Shown: piece by piece, positions 48,679 through 60,120 of the stretch | How the letters are laid out: every line of letters starts with the position of its first letter | Numbering within the stretch: position 1 is the first letter of the stretch | Source of the DNA: Tremella fuciformis | Lineage: Eukaryota; Basidiomycota; Tremellomycetes; Tremellales; Tremellaceae | DNA length: 64,000 nt | Direction of reading: 5' to 3' | Assembly: GCA_032768795.1 (NCBI GenBank) | Contig: CP136496.1 | Coordinates: forward strand, 1,674,001-1,738,000 | Made by a program: the position numbers and the translations under genes | Notes under the pieces: model-generated | The model's database searches: none | The model's input: the letters and a program-made list of their open reading frames with translations, nothing else | What the model was told of the DNA's origin: nothing

Positions 48679-49068
48679 CTACGTGAACTGCCTGACCGAA
48701 ACACCCCCAAACCTGACCTGTCTCCTCGGGGCATACCCGCCCTTGGTGTTCTCTCCAGGATCCCAGACCGGCGGGGGCTTCTTGCCCCAGCCCGTCCCAG
48801 CAGAAGAAGCAGAGGGCGCAGCATAGACGGGCGGGCGCGCATAGGCGGCAGGATACTGATAGGCATACCCGCTCGAAGGGTAGTAATACGGGCGCGAGTC
48901 GTACTGCTGTCGAGAGTAGTACGAGTAAGACGGCGAGGGGCACGGGCGGGAGAGGCACAGCCACGGGGGTAGCCAGCCTGCCCGTCAGTCTCGTCCATGC
49001 GCTTCTCGACTTGATTTGAGCTCACTGCGCCGGCGGTGGGGTGTGTAGGTGGGCGCGTAGTACCCCAT
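48679..49068 (-). CDS. small Tyr/Pro-rich protein with C-terminal GG motif, paralogue 1
   Basis: Not a family I recognise. Exon 1 encodes MGYYAPTYTPHRRR. A 48-nt intron (gtgagc donor, actgacgggcag acceptor) leads to WLPPWLCLSRPCPSP and a Tyr-rich stretch (YSYYSRQQYDSRPYYYPSSG). The protein is 113 residues and ends RRQVRFGGVSVRQFT. Two paralogues at 58017 and 59749 share the ending pattern [RK]xVx[FW]GGxxV[RK]xF. A further intron in the 5' leader (from 49236 down to about 49100) is suggested by gtgagt and ggctgacagacaggcag. No signal peptide. The VRF core fits the loose PP1-docking RVxF pattern (inference only). Confidence 0.68.
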
Positions 49069-50864: not shown

Positions 50865-50869
50865 CAACC
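50865..50869. repeat. target-site duplication CAACC, left
   Basis: CAACC directly abuts the left LTR and recurs directly after the right LTR at 57826-57830, as expected for integrase-made 5-bp duplications. Confidence 0.9.
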
Positions 50870-51067
50870 TGTCGGGGTCGGTGAACGCGAGTTGGTATGT
50901 GAGTGACTGCCTTGCTGGTCGACTGATATGCCAGGATGAGTTACCAGGTGACAGATGAATAATACATTCTTCGAAGAAGGTATCCTCTCCTTCTCAGTCT
51001 GTATATGTAGAGTTCTCACAGGTAGTCGGCTACTACGGGCATGTCCGTGATGACGTATTCCATTACA
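50870..51067 (-). repeat. 3' LTR of the chromovirus (198 bp)
   Basis: Direct repeat of 57628-57825 with TG/CA ends; I found no difference between them. In element orientation it contains ACATATACAG (TATA-like) and, 33 nt later, the GAAGAATG start of the sequence complementary to the priming site. Confidence 0.95.
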
Positions 51068-51082
51068 GTCGCCTCCTCCTTT
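51068..51082 (-). other. polypurine tract of the chromovirus
   Basis: In element orientation AAAGGAGGAGGCGAC directly abuts the 3' LTR, the position and composition of a plus-strand primer. Confidence 0.8.
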
Positions 51083-51191
51083 GTGCTCGGGCGTCGCGAC
51101 CGAGCCTAGCGACAGGGCGTCTCCTTGACGACGGTCGTGAGGGTGTCGACATGAGAACTGCAGAGTAGGGCGTGCAGTGACGGGCGCGGTG

Positions 51192-51197
51192 ATATAT
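51192..51197 (+). promoter_or_regulatory. TATA-like box of the antisense accessory gene
   Basis: GATATATGAACC about 90 bp before the ATG at 51288, inside the retroelement, so the gene appears to bring its own promoter. Confidence 0.45.
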
Positions 51198-51287
51198 GAA
51201 CCAGCCAGGTTGGGCGCCCGTTCTTCGTCCATCTCTCTTCTTTCTTGAATCCTCGAGCGACACCCCAACTTGCCAAGTACGTTAACG

Positions 51288-52215
51288 ATGCCTGCTCGTA
51301 TCTACACCGCCGCAGACGTGTCTGTATCCCCTCCTGCCTCGTACGCCATCGTCGATGCCAACGACGATTCGACTACATACCGCATAGGCAACGGTAGAAC
51401 GTACCGAGCGCGACATGTCGGCTTTGACGGGACCCTCACTCAAGCCAAGAATCGGGCGGCGGTACGTGGCAGCTACTGAGTGGTATTCGCTGACCAGCAG
51501 GATCTCTCCAACCAGCTATCTTTAACCTTAGCGGCGATGTCGGTTGATGAAGCTGGCCGGCACCGAGCCCATGTGATGCGCACGGCCGTGGCGTTCATAG
51601 CAGCGTGGGACGGTCGGCTGAGGATCGTAAGGGCCGCCGACAGTAAGTCTATTCCGCGATTACACAGCTTATTACCAGAGTGTAATGCCTGCGAAAAGGC
51701 TGGCAAGCCTTGTGTCGTAGCCGCTATTGTACTCCAGGGAGGCGGTTCCCGCGCAGTTTCCTCGCAAGTACTGTTTCGTTCCTGCCAGCTACGCTTACCT
51801 CAGCTGCGTGCGTTGTCACTCCCAGCATGGAGTTTCTTGCGACATCCAACTCGGTCTTGCCCTAGGCAAACGTCCTCGGGGCACCGTTCGTGAAAGTGCC
51901 TGGCAGGAACTGGGCTCGACTCTGCAGGATCTACGAAGCGAGCTGTCGTCTACTGACCGCATGACCGCCCATGACAAGAAGCGATGGAAGGGGTACATCG
52001 GGCGAGCCTTGTTTGTACGTTAGCATATTCGGTCCCTTACGGTTGCTAATTGGTAGATAGTCGACGGATTCCAGGTCAAGACGGAGCACAGGTCTCCCAA
52101 AAGGCCAGTCGACTATTCCAAGTATAGAGGCCGCGGTGGCTATGCACAGGAGTCGGACCCATCCGACGACGAGCCGACCGATCAGGAGGACGCAGAGGCC
52201 GATGACGATGCGTAG
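51288..52215 (+). CDS. spliced antisense accessory gene inside the chromovirus; Cys-rich protein of unknown function
   Basis: No family recognised. Five exons (51288-51461, 51501-51642, 51679-51713, 51757-52014, 52057-52215) with four GT-AG introns of 36-43 nt join in frame to a 255-residue protein. Start MPARIYTAADVSVSPPASYA. The middle has a Cys cluster: CNACEKAGKPC, then, across an intron, KYCFVPASYAYLSCVRC HSQHGVSC, which suggests a zinc-binding module. Then comes a charged helical part (SAWQELGSTLQDLRSEL) and an acidic tail ending EADDDA. It lies between pol and the 3' LTR on the opposite strand; stops of this gene and pol are 123 bp apart. Being antisense, its introns would not be removed from genomic RNA of the element. 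Confidence 0.8.
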
Positions 52216-52338
52216 TAGGTGTTGTAGATTGGCGCTTCCTTCCTCTTCCGGGGTGTGTTGTACATGATTATGCGTCCTCTTGCATGTAAAGACCGTCGCG
52301 TAGTTGGAACAACGAGTGTGGGTTATTAACAGGTACGC

Positions 52339-55300
52339 TCACGCGTACCTGTTAGGTACGAATCTCTTTCTCCTACTCTGGCTCTCCGAGCTTGAGTAGG
52401 CGTCGTACATGGTGGTGAAGGCAGGGTCGCTTTCCACCTCTGCCGCTGGTTCCCATGTACTGTCACTGATAGGCCATCCTATCCACTTGATACGGTAGTG
52501 TTTGGAGGTAATCCCCTGTTTGTCCTTGACCATTCGTTCGTCAAGGATCGCCTCGTAGGTATAGCCGTTGTCATCTAACACTATGTCGCTGACGGGCGAC
52601 TGCGTAGGTTGTAACTGGCTAGTACTTGCTTCCTCTGAGGCGTAGAAGGGCTTCAGGTATTCCACGTTGATCACGTCGTGGATCCTGTAGGACTCGGGGA
52701 GGTGCAGCTTGTATGCGTTGTCGTTGACCTTTGCTGCCACCTTGAATGGTCCTAGCCACCGGTTATCTAGTTTGGCTGACGTCCTAGCTCCTTTGTAGTT
52801 TCGAGCAGAAAGTAAGACTAGGTCGCCCACTTTGAAAGTCTGTAACCGGCGTTTACGGTCATATTGTCGCTTGTTCTGTGCCCGTGCGTGCTTGATCTGT
52901 TCTTGAAGGTACTTGAATCTTTCAAATATCCTGCGTGTATACGTCACCCCCTCCTCGCTTTCGTGCGAGGAACTTCCCAATGGGTCTGTCATATTCTGCC
53001 TAGGGGTGTAGCCGTACCAAGCATCGTAGGGGGTCATTCTGGTGGTTCCGTGCACCGTGGTGTTGTATACGAATTCTGCTGTAGGAAGCAGCACGGACCA
53101 GTCATCCTGTTCGTAGTTGGCATATACGCGTAGGTACTGTCCCAGCCACTTGTTGACTATCTCGGTTTGCCCATCCGTTTGTGGGTGGTACGCGGTAGAG
53201 AACTTGAGGTCACAGCCCAGCTTACTGGTGACTGTGCGCCAGAAAGCTGACACGTACTGTGCTCCTCTGTCCGAGATGATACGGTCTGGTAACCCCGTTC
53301 TTGGGTAGACTTTCGTAAGAAACGCCTCTGCCAGGGTAGGGGCGTCGAGCTTGTCGATAGGTATGAAGATCGCCGCCTTCGTTAGCTGGTCTACCCAGAC
53401 GCTGATGTTGGTATAGCCCTTGGAGTCCGGTAATTTGGTGATGTAGTCGGTAGATACGGTTGACCAGGGTCGCTCCGCCACGGGTATGTCTAGCAGTAAT
53501 CCTGGTTGTAGTTGGTTGGTATGTTTGGTCTTTTGGCACGTTTCGCAATGCTTTACCCATGTTTTGACGTCTCGTCGCATCCTCGGCCACCAGAATCTTG
53601 CAAGTAGCCTGGATGTGGTCTTGGCCACCCCCGGGTGGCCAGCCGTCGGTAGGTTATGAGCCCATATGAGGACCGTGGTTCGTTGCTTCTCGGGCACGAT
53701 AGGTAGGTCGCGGTAGTAGAAGAGGCCGTCCTTGTGTTTGTATTCTTCGGGATGGCTTTCCGTAAGAGCCACGTATTTTTGTTGTTCGTGCACATCCATG
53801 GCGCCTTTAAAGTCTTCTTGAGCCATAGGGTCCTTGTATTCGACCCTAGTTGCCAGGTACTGTGCTGAAGAAAGCAACGCCTTGAAGTTGTGCGCGTTGA
53901 GTTCTGGTGACAAGGTGGTTGCTTTGGTGTCCGTAGGTCGATAGTCTGGTCGTCTGGACAGGGCATCTGGCTTGGTAGCTTGTTTGCCTGGCCTATATTG
54001 GATGACAAAGTCGAAATCGGCCATGTACTCGCTCCATCTAGCTTGCCTCCTTGTCAATTGCTTGGTGGTTAAGAAGTACTCTAGGCTTCTGTGATCGGAT
54101 AGTACGACCACTCGTACTCGGGTACCTTCGAGGTAATGTCGCCAACTCTTGAATGCGTACACGATGGCTAGGAACTCCTTGTCGTGAACTGGATAGTTGA
54201 GTTCTGCCGGATCCATCTTCCGAGAAGCATATGCGATGGGTCTGGTTGTACCATCTGGGTAGGTGTGTGACAGGATACCACCCAGAGCGTAGTCCGACGC
54301 GTCCGTTTCTAGTAATAGGGGAAGCTTTGGGTCGTAGTGGCTGAGTACGGGAGCCGTAGTCATCGCTCGCTTGAGAGAATCGAAAGCGTCCTGCTGTTTG
54401 GGTCCCCATTGGAAGGGCGTTCCCTTCTTGGTTAAGTCGTGTAAGGATTTGGCTATTACCGAAAAGTTCCTGATAAATCTGCGGTAGAAGTTGGCGAACC
54501 CTACAAATGATTGTGTCTCCTTCAAGTTCGTAGGCGTGGGCCAGTCTTGTACCGCCTCCACCTTCTTTGGGTCCATCTTGATGCCGTTTTTGTTAAGAAC
54601 GAAACCCAGGAACTCCACCTCGTTGCTGTGGAATTGGCATTTCGAGAGTTTGGCGAATAGCTTATACTCTCGTAGTCGTCGCAGGACTTCCTGTACGTGG
54701 CGGGTATGGTGTTCCAGATCTTTGGAGTACACCAATATATCGTCGAGGTATACAGCCACGTACTTGTCGAGTAGGTCGTGGAAGACGTGGTTGATAAATA
54801 GCTGGAACGAGCCTGGTGCATTGCAGAGCCCGAAGGGCATGACCAGGTACTCGTATTGTCCGAAGGGTGTGCGGAAGGCTGTCTTCCACTCATCCCCCTC
54901 CGCTATGCGGACGAGGTTGTATGCTCCCCGTAGGTCTAACTTGGTAAACACGGTCGACCCACGTATTTGGTCGATTACGTCGCCTATCAGGGGCAAAGGG
55001 TATTTGTTCTTGATTGTCATGGCGTTGAGCTTGCGGTAATCGACGCATAATCGCAGACTTCCGTCCTTCTTTTTGACGAATAGGACTGGTGCTCCTGCGG
55101 GGGATCGTGACTCTCTGATGAAGCCTTTATCCAGGTTTTCTCGCAGGTACGCCATTAGTTCTTCCCTTTCTCGTGGGCTAAGTGCGTAGATAGGCCCAGC
55201 TGGTGGTACCTTGTCCGAGCTCAGTTGGATGGCATGGTCGAATTGCCGATGTTCTGGTAGTTTATCGGCCTGTCCTTTATCGAATACGTCTTTGTAGTGT

Positions 55301-57591
55301 GTATATTCGGCAGGTAGCTCTGTCTCAGTAGGCGGTTCCGCCGTCGTAATGGCGGTGTAGAGCCACGCAGTGGCCTGGTCTGATGTCTTGTCTGTTGTGT
55401 CCCGTGGCGCTAGAGTTCTCGCGCTCCAGTCTACCACAGGCTGCACTTTGTCCAGAAAGGGCATGCCTAAGATCAAGTGTGCTATGCGTATAGGGGAGAC
55501 TATGAAGTCGGCGTGATAAGGTTCGAACCCCCTTCCCAGTAGGACTGTAAGCTGTACTCGGTGGGTTAAGAGTCCGTACTCGGATACCCTGCCGTCCGCC
55601 ATTACCAATGGCGTTGGTCGTTTGAGTTTTGTCATGGGGAGGTGATGTCGAGCCACATACTCGTCGTCGACGAAGTTGGACGTCGCTCCCGTATCTAGGA
55701 GGGCCCTAGCGGTCTCTCCAGGGATTTGTGATAGGCCAATTGGGACGTTGAACAGCCTTGTAGGCGTTTCATAATTGGCGCGTACGCCGTCCTCTTTTGA
55801 TGTTCTTTTGGACCCTTCGAGGGGTTCCGTTTTGGTTAAGTACAAGGCAGACGGATCCGCCCTGCACGTCGCCTTCCTAATGTAATTGCGTACTACGTTC
55901 TGTGTTTTAGCTACATACGTCTTCTGTTCCGCCTGTTCAGGCGTCAAATTCTTCTCGTTCCCCCCTTGAATTTCTTGATAGCCTAGATCCGGTATCACCT
56001 TGTGTAGACCTTTGTATTTGGCCATTACCCGGTTGAAACTGTCTCTCAAGTTTCTTTTCTGGGGCTCGCTTGGTGGAGTGAGTCTGACGTTCACTCTCTC
56101 TGTCGCCATCGAACCTTCTTGGCTGTTGACGTCTGCGTAATTGCCTGTTACGTGGTTCTCTGTGGTCTGATCGGTTGTGTCGGTTTGGGCTACGTTGATC
56201 CGGTGTGGCGGTAACTTGTTCTGTGGTCGAGTCCAACAGTTGTTGATCGTGTGGCCCATTTTCCCACAATAGGTGCAAGCCCCTGCCTCTATACGGGCCT
56301 TACGTTCTTCCTCCGAGAGAGGTCCTCTCGGCTGTTGCGTGAACGTCCTGCCACTTTGAGGCTTAGGGGTTGTAGACTTGTTCGTCGTGCGTGGTGGTGA
56401 CTCTCTGTTACTTGCAGTGTCCAATCCCGCTTTTGGGCGGAAATGCCCTCGTACTTGTTGACTAGGGGTGTTGAATCGGGTATTTCCTTGGTGTCGGCCC
56501 GGCGGGTTTGGTCCCTGAAATGGGTGCTTGGGGTGCAACGCACGGACTTCTCGGTCTGCGTCGTCAATAGACAGGGTACGCTCGACTAGGTCGTTGAAGT
56601 CGCTGAATGTAGGGCGTGGTCGTTGCGTCATGAGTTCGCGTTGCAGGTACTCACGCAATCCCTTATAAAAGGCCATGCACTGCGTATCCGGTGACTGATT
56701 GGTCCGTGCTAGGATAGTACGGAACTTTACTACGTACTCAGAGGCCGACATGTTGCCTTGTCTGAGTCGGTCCAGTTCGAAGTAGGCCGAGAATTCCTCA
56801 TGGTGACGGCCAAAGGTTCGTCGAAGCTCGGTCATAAACCCTACCAGGGTGGTAGGTTCTTGATTGTTGTCGACTAGGCCAGTGTACCACTGCTCCGCCT
56901 CGTCTCGTAGGTAGCCAGAAGCAAAGATCACTTTGAGCTCTTCGGTCGGGTAGATAGGTGCTGCGATTCGCAGGTATCTTTCGACTTGGTGCACAAAAGC
57001 ATCCAGCTTCAGTCGGTCTAAATCGCCTCTAAAGACATCCGGCTTCTTGATATTCTTGGCGGCCTCGGCGGCCACTTTGATGTCCACGGGTTGATTCAGC
57101 CCCGTAGTTGTCATGTACGGTTCTGTAGTCGACGTCCTCGGCTGTGTAGGTTCTCGGACAGGCTGTCTTCGTGCCTGCTCCATCTGTTGGAGCTGCATCT
57201 CGATCCTAGTTCGTTGGTCGAGTAGCTCTTGATACGTGGGACCTTGGCTAAGGTGCGGGGGATTGCCCCGCACAAAAGGGGTAACTCGGGGAATTTCTTC
57301 CTCCGCTAGTCGAGTTGATAGATAGTGCGAACCATGTACTCCGTTCGTATCCACCGTGTACGTAGTCGGTGGAGCCTCGAGTGGAGCGGTTCTCGAGTCG
57401 CTGTTGCCAGTCGTCGGCTGTTCTTCGAGTGGTTGCTCGAGGTTGGACAACGGCGACGAGCGAGTAGTAGGTGACAAAGGTTGAGGGTGTATCTGAAGGC
57501 TTGTGTCTCTGTTATCGGCAGGTAGGGCCACCTGGGCGTCGATTCCCGGCGCTCCTCCTGTTGGATTCTGTCTCGTAGGTCTTCCTGACAT
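52339..57591 (-). CDS. Gag-Pol polyprotein of the Ty3/gypsy chromovirus
   Basis: One uninterrupted frame of 1,750 residues; the start MSGRPTRQNPTGG is the first ATG after the 5' LTR and priming site. Gag (about 1-435) includes FRGDLDRLKLDAFVHQVERY and ends with a CCHC knuckle (CTYCGKMGHTINNC, about 437). Next are the aspartic protease (ALLDTGATSNF, about 632); reverse transcriptase with VYLDDILVYS (about 947); RNase H (LLLETDASDYALGG, about 1095); integrase with the HHCC finger (HNLPTAGHPG to HCETCQKTK, about 1310) and DDE residues around WVDQLTK and SDRGAQY. At 1675-1735 is a chromodomain (YRIKWIGWPISDSTWEPAAE), which directs integration to particular chromatin in this clade. No gag/pol frameshift, as in Tf1-like elements. 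Confidence 0.97.
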   Translation of the reverse strand: MSGRPTRQNPTGGAPGIDAQVALPADNRDTSLQIHPQPLSPTTRSSPLSNLEQPLEEQPTTGNSDSRTAPLEAPPTTYTVDTNGVHGSHYLSTRLAEEEIPRVTPFVRGNPPHLSQGPTYQELLDQRTRIEMQLQQMEQARRQPVREPTQPRTSTTEPYMTTTGLNQPVDIKVAAEAAKNIKKPDVFRGDLDRLKLDAFVHQVERYLRIAAPIYPTEELKVIFASGYLRDEAEQWYTGLVDNNQEPTTLVGFMTELRRTFGRHHEEFSAYFELDRLRQGNMSASEYVVKFRTILARTNQSPDTQCMAFYKGLREYLQRELMTQRPRPTFSDFNDLVERTLSIDDADREVRALHPKHPFQGPNPPGRHQGNTRFNTPSQQVRGHFRPKAGLDTASNRESPPRTTNKSTTPKPQSGRTFTQQPRGPLSEEERKARIEAGACTYCGKMGHTINNCWTRPQNKLPPHRINVAQTDTTDQTTENHVTGNYADVNSQEGSMATERVNVRLTPPSEPQKRNLRDSFNRVMAKYKGLHKVIPDLGYQEIQGGNEKNLTPEQAEQKTYVAKTQNVVRNYIRKATCRADPSALYLTKTEPLEGSKRTSKEDGVRANYETPTRLFNVPIGLSQIPGETARALLDTGATSNFVDDEYVARHHLPMTKLKRPTPLVMADGRVSEYGLLTHRVQLTVLLGRGFEPYHADFIVSPIRIAHLILGMPFLDKVQPVVDWSARTLAPRDTTDKTSDQATAWLYTAITTAEPPTETELPAEYTHYKDVFDKGQADKLPEHRQFDHAIQLSSDKVPPAGPIYALSPREREELMAYLRENLDKGFIRESRSPAGAPVLFVKKKDGSLRLCVDYRKLNAMTIKNKYPLPLIGDVIDQIRGSTVFTKLDLRGAYNLVRIAEGDEWKTAFRTPFGQYEYLVMPFGLCNAPGSFQLFINHVFHDLLDKYVAVYLDDILVYSKDLEHHTRHVQEVLRRLREYKLFAKLSKCQFHSNEVEFLGFVLNKNGIKMDPKKVEAVQDWPTPTNLKETQSFVGFANFYRRFIRNFSVIAKSLHDLTKKGTPFQWGPKQQDAFDSLKRAMTTAPVLSHYDPKLPLLLETDASDYALGGILSHTYPDGTTRPIAYASRKMDPAELNYPVHDKEFLAIVYAFKSWRHYLEGTRVRVVVLSDHRSLEYFLTTKQLTRRQARWSEYMADFDFVIQYRPGKQATKPDALSRRPDYRPTDTKATTLSPELNAHNFKALLSSAQYLATRVEYKDPMAQEDFKGAMDVHEQQKYVALTESHPEEYKHKDGLFYYRDLPIVPEKQRTTVLIWAHNLPTAGHPGVAKTTSRLLARFWWPRMRRDVKTWVKHCETCQKTKHTNQLQPGLLLDIPVAERPWSTVSTDYITKLPDSKGYTNISVWVDQLTKAAIFIPIDKLDAPTLAEAFLTKVYPRTGLPDRIISDRGAQYVSAFWRTVTSKLGCDLKFSTAYHPQTDGQTEIVNKWLGQYLRVYANYEQDDWSVLLPTAEFVYNTTVHGTTRMTPYDAWYGYTPRQNMTDPLGSSSHESEEGVTYTRRIFERFKYLQEQIKHARAQNKRQYDRKRRLQTFKVGDLVLLSARNYKGARTSAKLDNRWLGPFKVAAKVNDNAYKLHLPESYRIHDVINVEYLKPFYASEEASTSQLQPTQSPVSDIVLDDNGYTYEAILDERMVKDKQGITSKHYRIKWIGWPISDSTWEPAAEVESDPAFTTMYDAYSSSESQSRRKRFVPNRYA

Positions 57592-57612
57592 ACCTGTCGT
57601 CCACAAGTATGG

Positions 57613-57625
57613 GAAGAATGTATTA
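57613..57625 (-). other. self-priming primer-binding site
   Basis: In element orientation TAATACATTCTTC lies two bases after the 5' LTR. It is complementary over 13 nt to GAAGAATGTATTA inside the LTR (plus-strand 57718-57730), which sits 33 nt after a TATA box and so would be the 5' end of the RNA. This is the Tf1-type self-priming layout. No TGG tRNA-type site is present. Confidence 0.75.
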
Positions 57626-57627
57626 AC

Positions 57628-57825
57628 TGTCGGGGTCGGTGAACGCGAGTTGGTATGTGAGTGACTGCCTTGCTGGTCGACTGATATGCCAGGATGAGTT
57701 ACCAGGTGACAGATGAATAATACATTCTTCGAAGAAGGTATCCTCTCCTTCTCAGTCTGTATATGTAGAGTTCTCACAGGTAGTCGGCTACTACGGGCAT
57801 GTCCGTGATGACGTATTCCATTACA
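57628..57825 (-). repeat. 5' LTR of the chromovirus (198 bp)
   Basis: Identical partner of 50870-51067; begins and ends TG/CA. Carries the promoter for the element RNA. Confidence 0.95.
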
Positions 57826-57830
57826 CAACC
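57826..57830. repeat. target-site duplication CAACC, right
   Basis: Matches 50865-50869. Confidence 0.9.
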
Positions 57831-58016: not shown

Positions 58017-58328
58017 ATGGGCTACCGCGCGCAATACACCTACCCCGCCCAGCAGCAGCGTGGCTGGATGCCATTCTGGCGGCCATACGGTGCACCGCCG
58101 CAGCAGTACTACTATGCCTCCCAGCAGGCATACTACCCAACGCGGGCGCCCGCGTACCAGCCCCCGGCGCCCACGTACCATTGGGCCCAGCACAGGCAGC
58201 CGGCCGTGTGGAATCCCGCCGCCAACGCGCGCCAGTACGCGCCCGCCCCCACCGCCGTGCCCGCTACCGGCGACAAGAAGAAGAAGGTCCGATGGGGCGG
58301 TGTGCACGTCAAGCGATTCTACACCTGA
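58017..58328 (+). CDS. small Tyr/Pro-rich protein with C-terminal GG motif, paralogue 2
   Basis: Single coding exon of 103 residues, start MGYRAQYTYPAQQQRG just after the leader intron. Rich in Tyr, Pro, Ala and Gln (YYYASQQAYYPTRAPAYQPP). The C-terminus KKKVRWGGVHVKRFYT matches the motif of paralogues 1 (48679-49068) and 3 (59749-60120). No signal peptide or membrane segment. Function unknown. Its promoter TATA lies at 50809, now separated from the gene by the 7-kb chromovirus, so expression may be lost or driven from the element. Confidence 0.72.
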   Translation: MGYRAQYTYPAQQQRGWMPFWRPYGAPPQQYYYASQQAYYPTRAPAYQPPAPTYHWAQHRQPAVWNPAANARQYAPAPTAVPATGDKKKKVRWGGVHVKRFYT

Positions 58329-59748: not shown

Positions 59749-60120
59749 ATGCCATACTACGCATCCTACAACTCGCCCCAGCGCAAACCAAACCTCCTCG
59801 CATCCCTCTTCTGCCGCCCCGACCCGACCCCCTCCCCCTCCCCCGCCTACACCCAAGCATACTACACGCCGGCACATGCGCATGTGCAGCCGCAGATGTA
59901 CAACTACAACGTCTACTCGTCGCAGGGGTACGCGCCGCCCATGTACGCCGGGCCCCCCGGGGCATACGGCGGGAAGCGCAAGTATGCCCCGGCCGTCTAT
60001 CTCGGCAATACCGGCAGCGGGACTTATCGCACGTATGCGCGGGCGCCGGCCCCACCGCCGGCGACGGCGACGACGGGCAAGAGCGTCTCGTGGGGCGGGG
60101 CGAGCGTGAGGCGGTTCTAG
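59749..60120 (+). CDS. small Tyr/Pro-rich protein with C-terminal GG motif, paralogue 3
   Basis: Single coding exon of 123 residues, start MPYYASYNSPQRKPNLL directly after the leader intron. Tyr/Pro/Ala-rich middle (YTQAYYTPAHAHVQPQMYNY), ending TGKSVSWGGASVRRF. The final 13 residues share the motif of paralogues 1 and 2 while the middles diverge, so the ending is the constrained part. No signal peptide or membrane helix. Function unknown. Confidence 0.7.
   Translation: MPYYASYNSPQRKPNLLASLFCRPDPTPSPSPAYTQAYYTPAHAHVQPQMYNYNVYSSQGYAPPMYAGPPGAYGGKRKYAPAVYLGNTGSGTYRTYARAPAPPPATATTGKSVSWGGASVRRF

Follow-up and report, generated by a model that had tools for sequence, protein, structure and literature searches.

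A conserved antisense gene with predicted introns in a chromovirus of Tremella fuciformis

Introduction

Can an element that multiplies through RNA hold on to a gene that has introns? Introns in the cargo of a retroelement are commonly expected to be lost at reverse transcription, and a locus of the fungus Tremella fuciformis raises the question directly. The window analysed here is a 64,000-nucleotide (nt) stretch of contig CP136496.1 (positions 1,674,001 to 1,738,000). It contains a complete chromovirus, that is, a Ty3-type long terminal repeat (LTR) retrotransposon, of a family that we call F1; gag-pol is on the minus strand, and in the stretch that separates pol from the 3' LTR a candidate gene of five exons can be read on the plus strand (51288-52215). 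The original prediction, made from the letters of the window, took this for a full host-style gene with its own promoter and four GT-AG introns. The position of the gene, its copies, its frame, the introns in the DNA and the selection on it are established by the results below. We read it as a real, spliced accessory gene of the element, most likely encoding a nuclear regulator made only from integrated DNA, and we would put the probability of this reading at about 0.6.

Results

Structure of the antisense gene

The gene begins with an ATG at 51288, which is 220 nt in from the edge of the LTR. Exon 1 (51288..51461) is followed by predicted intron 1 (51462..51500; 39 nt, GT-AG, phase 0), which contains a branch-like CTGAC motif, and by exon 2 (51501..51642) and predicted intron 2 (51643..51678; 36 nt, GT-AG, phase 1). 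Exon 3 (51679..51763), drawn from the phases of substitutions together with the gene model, encodes the first Cys motif, CNACEKAGKPC. Our preferred candidate for intron 3 lies at 51764..51803 (40 nt, GC-AG, phase 2), and exon 4 (51804..52014) encodes the second Cys motif, CVRCHSQHGVSC. After predicted intron 4 (52015..52056; 42 nt, GT-AG, phase 0), exon 5 (52057..52215) encodes an acidic C-terminal tail and ends with the stop codon at 52213-52215. All of these features are on the plus strand. Introns 1, 2 and 4 thus stand as first drawn, as GT-AG introns in a range of 36-43 nt, while intron 3 had to be replaced. Upstream of the gene, a TATA-like ATATATGA (51192..51199, plus strand) is a candidate promoter; the sole variable base near it among the 19 copies described next is the adjacent 51191.

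The gene occupies the same slot in 19 copies

We searched the genome (28.1 Mb in 11 contigs) for DNA matching the gene region, a count to which elements lacking the gene, if there are any, would not contribute. The region is present in 19 copies, each full length, and in every one an LTR lies at the expected distance on one side and the end of gag-pol lies beyond the gene on the other; other copies with the same gene at the same place, which had been called for, were therefore found in numbers. Both LTRs fall within the fetched stretch in 15 of the 19 copies, the pair is identical in all 15, and 12 of these are flanked by a perfect 5-bp target duplication. In the remaining four (L023, L030, L033 and L034) no second LTR lies within the fetched 9.7 kb, and none of them has a broken antisense frame. 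Whole-genome matches suggest that the rest of their gag-pol and a second LTR are further off, at 12-21 kb from LTR to LTR, so that other DNA would have been inserted into these copies.

The copies form two subfamilies, A with 12 members, among them the window copy (L017), and B with 7, which are about 3.5% apart in the antisense region; one B copy, L029, differs from the window copy by 2.6%. With the GC-AG model of intron 3, all 256 codons are intact in 19/19 copies, all eight splice dinucleotides are present in 18/19, and intron loss is seen in none. A five-exon frame can thus be joined across 51288-52215 and is kept in all copies found, and the absence of intron loss is as expected of an antisense gene that keeps its introns through the RNA cycle.

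The window copy itself differs from L018-L026 at 1-6 of 1286 bases of the antisense region and from L027 at 12, and its gag-pol differs by 0.8-0.95% from those of the A copies with a full-length gag-pol. It is perhaps a mosaic produced by template switching.

Selection acts on the antisense frame

To ask how the frame has changed between copies, we counted coding differences. L017 (A) and L033 (B) differ at 23 coding sites, 19 synonymous and 4 non-synonymous, a ratio of non-synonymous to synonymous rates (dN/dS) of 0.065; over five comparisons, four of them A versus B, dN/dS was 0.055-0.087. This is the range of a frame under purifying selection. When the same base changes were re-placed at random in the coding sequence (5000 trials), non-synonymous changes averaged 16.5 for the L017/L033 comparison, and no trial had as few as 4. 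Three further B copies likewise gave 0/5000 trials as conservative as the observed pattern, and the closest pair (with L028, six differences) gave 0.028. The introns differ at 12/157 bases, with dN at 0.007. The three frames of the opposite strand hold 7-13 stops and show 19.5-27 non-synonymous against 8-15.5 synonymous differences. For gag-pol, dN/dS was 0.125-0.145 across A and B (three comparisons) and 0.077 and 0.139 within A (two comparisons). In its presence and conservation (19/19 copies of the gene, kept to about the same degree as the element's other proteins) and in its placement, on the strand opposite gag-pol and between pol and the 3' LTR, the gene agrees with the class of antisense genes known as aORF-3R.

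Variants seen in a single copy and variants shared between copies behave differently. In the antisense gene the ratio of non-synonymous to synonymous variants is 6:6 among single-copy variants and 4:21 among shared ones (one-sided Fisher P 0.039); in gag-pol, over 12 copies, the corresponding ratios are 21:12 and 29:83. Because the non-synonymous share is low in shared variants and higher in single-copy ones, selection seems to act on the transposing lineage and to be relaxed once a copy has inserted.

Intron 3

The earlier intron 3, of 43 nt and leading to a product of 255 residues, corresponds to an in-frame join at 51714-51756. Six positions vary between copies in 51679-51767 (51698, 51719, 51728, 51737, 51746 and 51764); all six are third positions of the exon-3 frame, and four of them lie within 51714-51756. 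Since the variants all hit third positions, that stretch is coding. The window copy allows 11 GT-AG in-frame joins for this intron, and we compared these and the GC-AG join 51764-51803 across the 19 copies. Six of the 12, including 51714-51756, put a stop in one copy (L034), and the 255-residue product with its 43-nt intron was given up on both counts. The other six keep all 19 frames open. Three of these lose one splice dinucleotide in a single copy (GC-AG 51764-51803 in L025, 51773-51803 in L034 and 51808-51865 in L023), and three keep both GT and AG in 19/19: 51768-51825 (58 nt), 51756-51825 (70 nt) and 51778-51832 (55 nt). The first of these, GT-AG 51768-51825, would give 250 amino acids (aa) without the second CxxC and matches the substitutions as well as the GC-AG model does.

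Our choice, held with somewhat better than even confidence, is the GC-AG intron of 40 nt (51764-51803), giving 256 aa. We prefer it because its length is like that of the other introns, because a branch-like CTTAC ends 5 nt before its 3' end, because it retains the second CxxC, and because of a parallel in a second family, F2 (below), where an intron of the same phase directly precedes the corresponding CxxC. As that parallel was used in choosing the model, it does not count as independent evidence of homology.

The predicted protein

The refined product has 256 aa, with six cysteines spaced as Cx2Cx6C-x16-Cx2Cx7C. It is basic except for the last 41 residues, which are acidic (computed pI 4.1) and are preceded by a stretch rich in K, R and G. 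The Cys cluster probably binds zinc. The fungal Zn(2)-Cys(6) cluster (PF00172) was considered and set aside: the first protein model scored 11.6 bits against a cut-off of 21, and the refined model gave no match. The linker between the two Cys motifs is also longer than that of the Zn(2)-Cys(6) motif. A basic leucine zipper (bZIP) domain of the kind found in HBZ was set aside as well, the refined product matching no Pfam family.

A search of the protein database with the first model, word-based and of limited reach, returned one match at E <= 1, an unspliced fragment of the same gene; named fungal relatives of gag-pol are present in that database. Outside the 19 copies, the refined protein had a single match in the genome (E 0.56). 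With the first model there were two weak extra matches, one at E 0.005, which was not identified, and one at E 0.14, which reads as a Zn2Cys6-type protein.

The host element

The window copy of F1 spans 50870..57825 on the minus strand (6956 bp) and is flanked by the target duplication CAACC (50865-50869 and 57826-57830). Its 3' LTR (50870..51067, minus strand) and 5' LTR (57628..57825, minus strand) are each 198 bp long and do not differ, and by this identity the element is young. Gag-pol (52339..57591, minus strand) is a single frame of 1750 codons, counted from the Met used, that holds gag, protease, reverse transcriptase, RNase H, integrase and a C-terminal chromodomain. With LTRs, target duplication, integrase, chromodomain and all other gag-pol domains in place, we assign the element to the chromoviruses, and the earlier description of an intact chromovirus with gag-pol on the minus strand holds. 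Among the 120 matches listed, Trichosporon asahii (60%) and Tremellales sp. Uapishka_1 (58%) supply the nearest named fungal relatives of its gag-pol, which points to a tremellomycete host; a single scan of viral contigs with gag-pol gave no relatives. Residues 900-1400 of the gag-pol frame (52342-57591) are 100% identical to a protein on a 6.7-kb contig from another source (P0004), and the same element is therefore present in other sequence data.

A primer-binding site (57613..57625, minus strand) of 13 nt is complementary to a stretch within the element's own LTR and lies 2 nt from that LTR; in F2 (copy L040) a self-complementary site of 15 nt is placed in the same way. The scan covered complementarity to the LTR. 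This candidate self-priming design, examined in one copy of each family, resembles that of Tf1.

Around the element are small Tyr/Pro-rich frames at 48679-48984 (minus strand), 58017-58328 (plus strand) and 59749-60120 (plus strand), with similar ends (VRFGGVSVRQF, VRWGGVHVKRF and VSWGGASVRRF). They are apparently a cluster of related host genes among which the chromovirus sits.

A similar gene in a second chromovirus family

A gag-pol search, in which 26 of 745 candidates were scored, led to a second chromovirus family, F2, whose pol is 48% identical to that of F1. Each of the three copies fetched (L038-L040) is bounded by an identical pair of 313-bp LTRs. F2, too, carries an antisense gene in the slot between pol and the 3' LTR, predicted to encode 514 aa and to be interrupted by three introns (43, 43 and 49 nt; phases 0, 2 and 0). 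All three intron motifs are matched in L039 and L040 and two of three in L038, where the third has one differing base, and the frame runs through 514 codons in the same columns in the copies compared. From the LTR edge to the ATG the distance is 219 nt in F2 and 220 nt in F1. The product has the motifs CAAC ... CLGCMLKSKHC, a CxxC and a CxxC-x6-C, and in F2, as in the preferred model of F1, a phase-2 intron comes just ahead of the second CxxC and the last intron is in phase 0. A common origin of the two antisense genes is likely on this comparison. Whether an intron-bearing antisense gene is an ancestral third gene of a chromovirus lineage, the gene and at least some of its introns predating the F1/F2 split and surviving very many RNA cycles thanks to the antisense orientation, we regard as an even bet.

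The families examined were F1, F2 and part of a third, L041; of the Ty3 RNase H matches in the genome, the best 150 of 212 candidates were scored. With the F2 protein, the protein database gave no match at E <= 10 among 7994 candidates scored, and single exons fell under the length limit of that search. F2 exon 2 is present at 17 places in the genome, and the surrounding element was seen at three of them. A fragment resembling F2 exon 2 (60% over 42 aa) lies at C10:743182-743869, about 320 bp from an Argonaute-like fragment. At C10:634933-635501 there is a diverged relative of the F2 antisense gene (44-51%) that contains stops; no RNase H match lies within 45 kb of it among the best 150 of 212, and it may be an old relic or belong to a third family.

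Discussion

Relation to known antisense genes

Genes that run against gag-pol in the space from pol to the 3' LTR have been described in the plant elements Grande, RIRE2 and Retand and in Boty of Botrytis (brtn), as summarised in PMC7264820. An antisense gene in this slot is therefore not new as a kind. For brtn, PMC8365987 cites Zhao et al. 2011. Boty, of Botrytis cinerea, is like F1 a fungal element with an additional antisense gene in this place (PMC7264820). We compare brtn and the F1 gene by placement alone and imply no common ancestry. Botrytis is an ascomycete.

The maize gene23 of Grande, an aORF-3R, shares its placement with the F1 gene. According to PMC7264820 the gene is transcribed from a promoter upstream of it, and its product, GENE23, is nuclear; introns go unmentioned in the parts of that article at hand, whereas F1 has four predicted ones. 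RIRE2 and Retand have antisense open reading frames (ORFs) in the same place (PMC7264820, PMC11963269). The TRP28 domain encoded by Retand possibly binds DNA (PMC7264820, PMC11963269), and antisense coding regions were found in all Retand clusters (PMC11963269). Retand belongs to a non-chromovirus plant lineage, and the word intron is absent from the available text of PMC11963269; neither the F1 nor the F2 product has a Pfam match.

Human T-cell leukemia virus (HTLV) has the antisense proteins HBZ (of HTLV-1) and APH, which are spliced, nuclear and repress viral transcription (PMC3185765). Like the F1 gene with its predicted introns, they are read antisense from the 3' end of a retroelement. 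HBZ, however, is a bZIP factor with its ATG in an exon in the LTR, whereas the F1 product has a Cys cluster, an ATG 220 nt inside the LTR edge and four introns. The ORF3s of LTR retrotransposons of bdelloid rotifers are additional genes that form separate transcription units with spliced messages (PMC5408684); their proteins differ from the F1 product, and an antisense orientation is not stated in the portion of that article consulted. The accessible sections of PMC3248453 and PMC7175516 show no antisense gene of the F1 kind, and the legend of a figure in PMC2864245 points out an extra ORF with no known function. In a literature survey by titles and the starts of abstracts, mostly outside subscription journals, we recognised no fungal LTR retrotransposon described as carrying an antisense gene with several introns. 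Relative to the aORF-3R genes known so far, what is new is the multi-exon structure in all copies, the measured selection and the counterpart in a diverged family.

A model for the antisense gene, and its rivals

The antisense transcript would begin in the 3' LTR or between it and the ATG and run toward the end of pol. The host spliceosome would remove the introns, yielding a small six-Cys protein that is basic around the Cys cluster and acidic in its tail. The genomic RNA carries the other strand of the gene; the introns would for that reason travel unspliced through the RNA cycle, and the protein would be made solely from integrated, double-stranded copies. Most likely the protein then has a nuclear function, in the expression of its own element or in the handling of the element's complementary DNA (cDNA), like HBZ and APH of HTLV or GENE23 of Grande. 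Expression, splicing, zinc binding, nuclear location and a regulatory role are what we infer for this product.

Several results weigh against this account. No Pfam family was found for the refined F1 product or for the F2 product. In NCBIfam the refined product had three matches far under the cut-offs, the best at E 0.01 with 15.9 of 75 bits (the top two are ferredoxin and cytochrome models), and a search of the PDB gave nothing better than E 0.41. The GC donor of intron 3 is lost in L025, and three rival joins hold both frame and splice sites in 19/19 copies. The products of F1 and F2 are only weakly similar (20/66 identical over the Cys region, BLASTP E 0.077, one pair compared), dN/dS among the three F2 copies is higher than in F1 (0.15-0.29, from 13-17 differences), and in the L041 family no similar antisense Cys gene was seen among ORFs of at least 50 aa in C8:133000-135800, searched without splicing. 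No TATA-like motif was seen upstream of the F2 gene, which weakens the claim of an own promoter, argued as it was from the motif in F1. Finally, it is by analogy only that the product is placed in the nucleus and given a regulatory role.

Could the protein be real and yet serve another step? It may work in cDNA handling or integration, as a chaperone, in nuclear import or in target choice, instead of controlling transcription. The basic product, its Cys cluster and the K/R/G-rich stretch ahead of the acidic tail would suit such a task, and PMC7264820 discusses transport of the pre-integration complex for proteins of this kind. A protein translated from the antisense RNA of an integrated copy would, however, presumably not be packaged with gag-pol by default, and although the present data do not separate the two roles, we consider this one unlikely. 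Less probable still is that the antisense transcript itself is the active agent, pairing with genomic RNA to trigger RNA interference (RNAi) or to block reverse transcription, with the frame secondary. Such a transcript would face each genomic RNA over its 3' part, matches to Argonaute (Piwi domain) and to RNA-dependent RNA polymerase (RdRP) above curated cut-offs are present in the genome, and antisense RNAs inhibit Ty1 and have been proposed to restrain Tf2 (PMC7175516). A role of the RNA alone does not, however, predict selection at the level of codons (19 synonymous to 4 non-synonymous differences). It may act in addition: since the host has Argonaute and RdRP matches, an effect of double-stranded RNA may add to that of the protein.

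The introns might instead point to a host gene captured recently and riding as cargo, and they are indeed of the spliceosomal type and close in length to the candidate introns of a kinesin gene nearby (43-50 nt; CTGAC or CTGAT motifs; pattern matches, predicted). Against this, the 28.1 Mb outside the element gave no host paralog beyond the one match of the refined protein at E 0.56 or the two weak ones of the first model, the protein database returned at E <= 1, with the first model, just the unspliced fragment of the same gene, and a similar gene is present in F2, at 48% identity in pol. We rejected recent capture, which we hold to be improbable, and the idea of a host-style gene taken from the host is weakened with it. 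With E 0.56 as the sole outside match of the refined protein and the same kind of gene in F2, it looks like an old gene of the element. Another possibility is that non-coding DNA happens to read as a chain of exons, as the splice sites were first picked by eye and intron 3, out of the four, was misplaced. It is very improbable: the codon-position pattern, equalled in 0/5000 randomisations, comes with 0/19 broken frames, whereas the opposite-strand frames are full of stops and collect mostly non-synonymous differences. As far as sequence allows, a non-coding reading is excluded.

Implications

The preferred reading remains that of a spliced accessory gene of the element, which may help to control how the element spreads. 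An RNA-borne element appears here to contain, as a stable part of itself under selection, a gene with four introns of the spliceosomal type. If an intron-bearing antisense gene is indeed an ancestral third gene of these chromoviruses, its dependence on splicing would be a switch, making it expressible from integrated DNA and never from genomic RNA. It can now be tested whether retroelements in general use antisense placement to hold on to regulators that have introns, as HTLV does with HBZ. F1, with many near-identical young copies in a host that has RNAi genes, offers a fungal system for the long-unexplained antisense genes of LTR retrotransposons.
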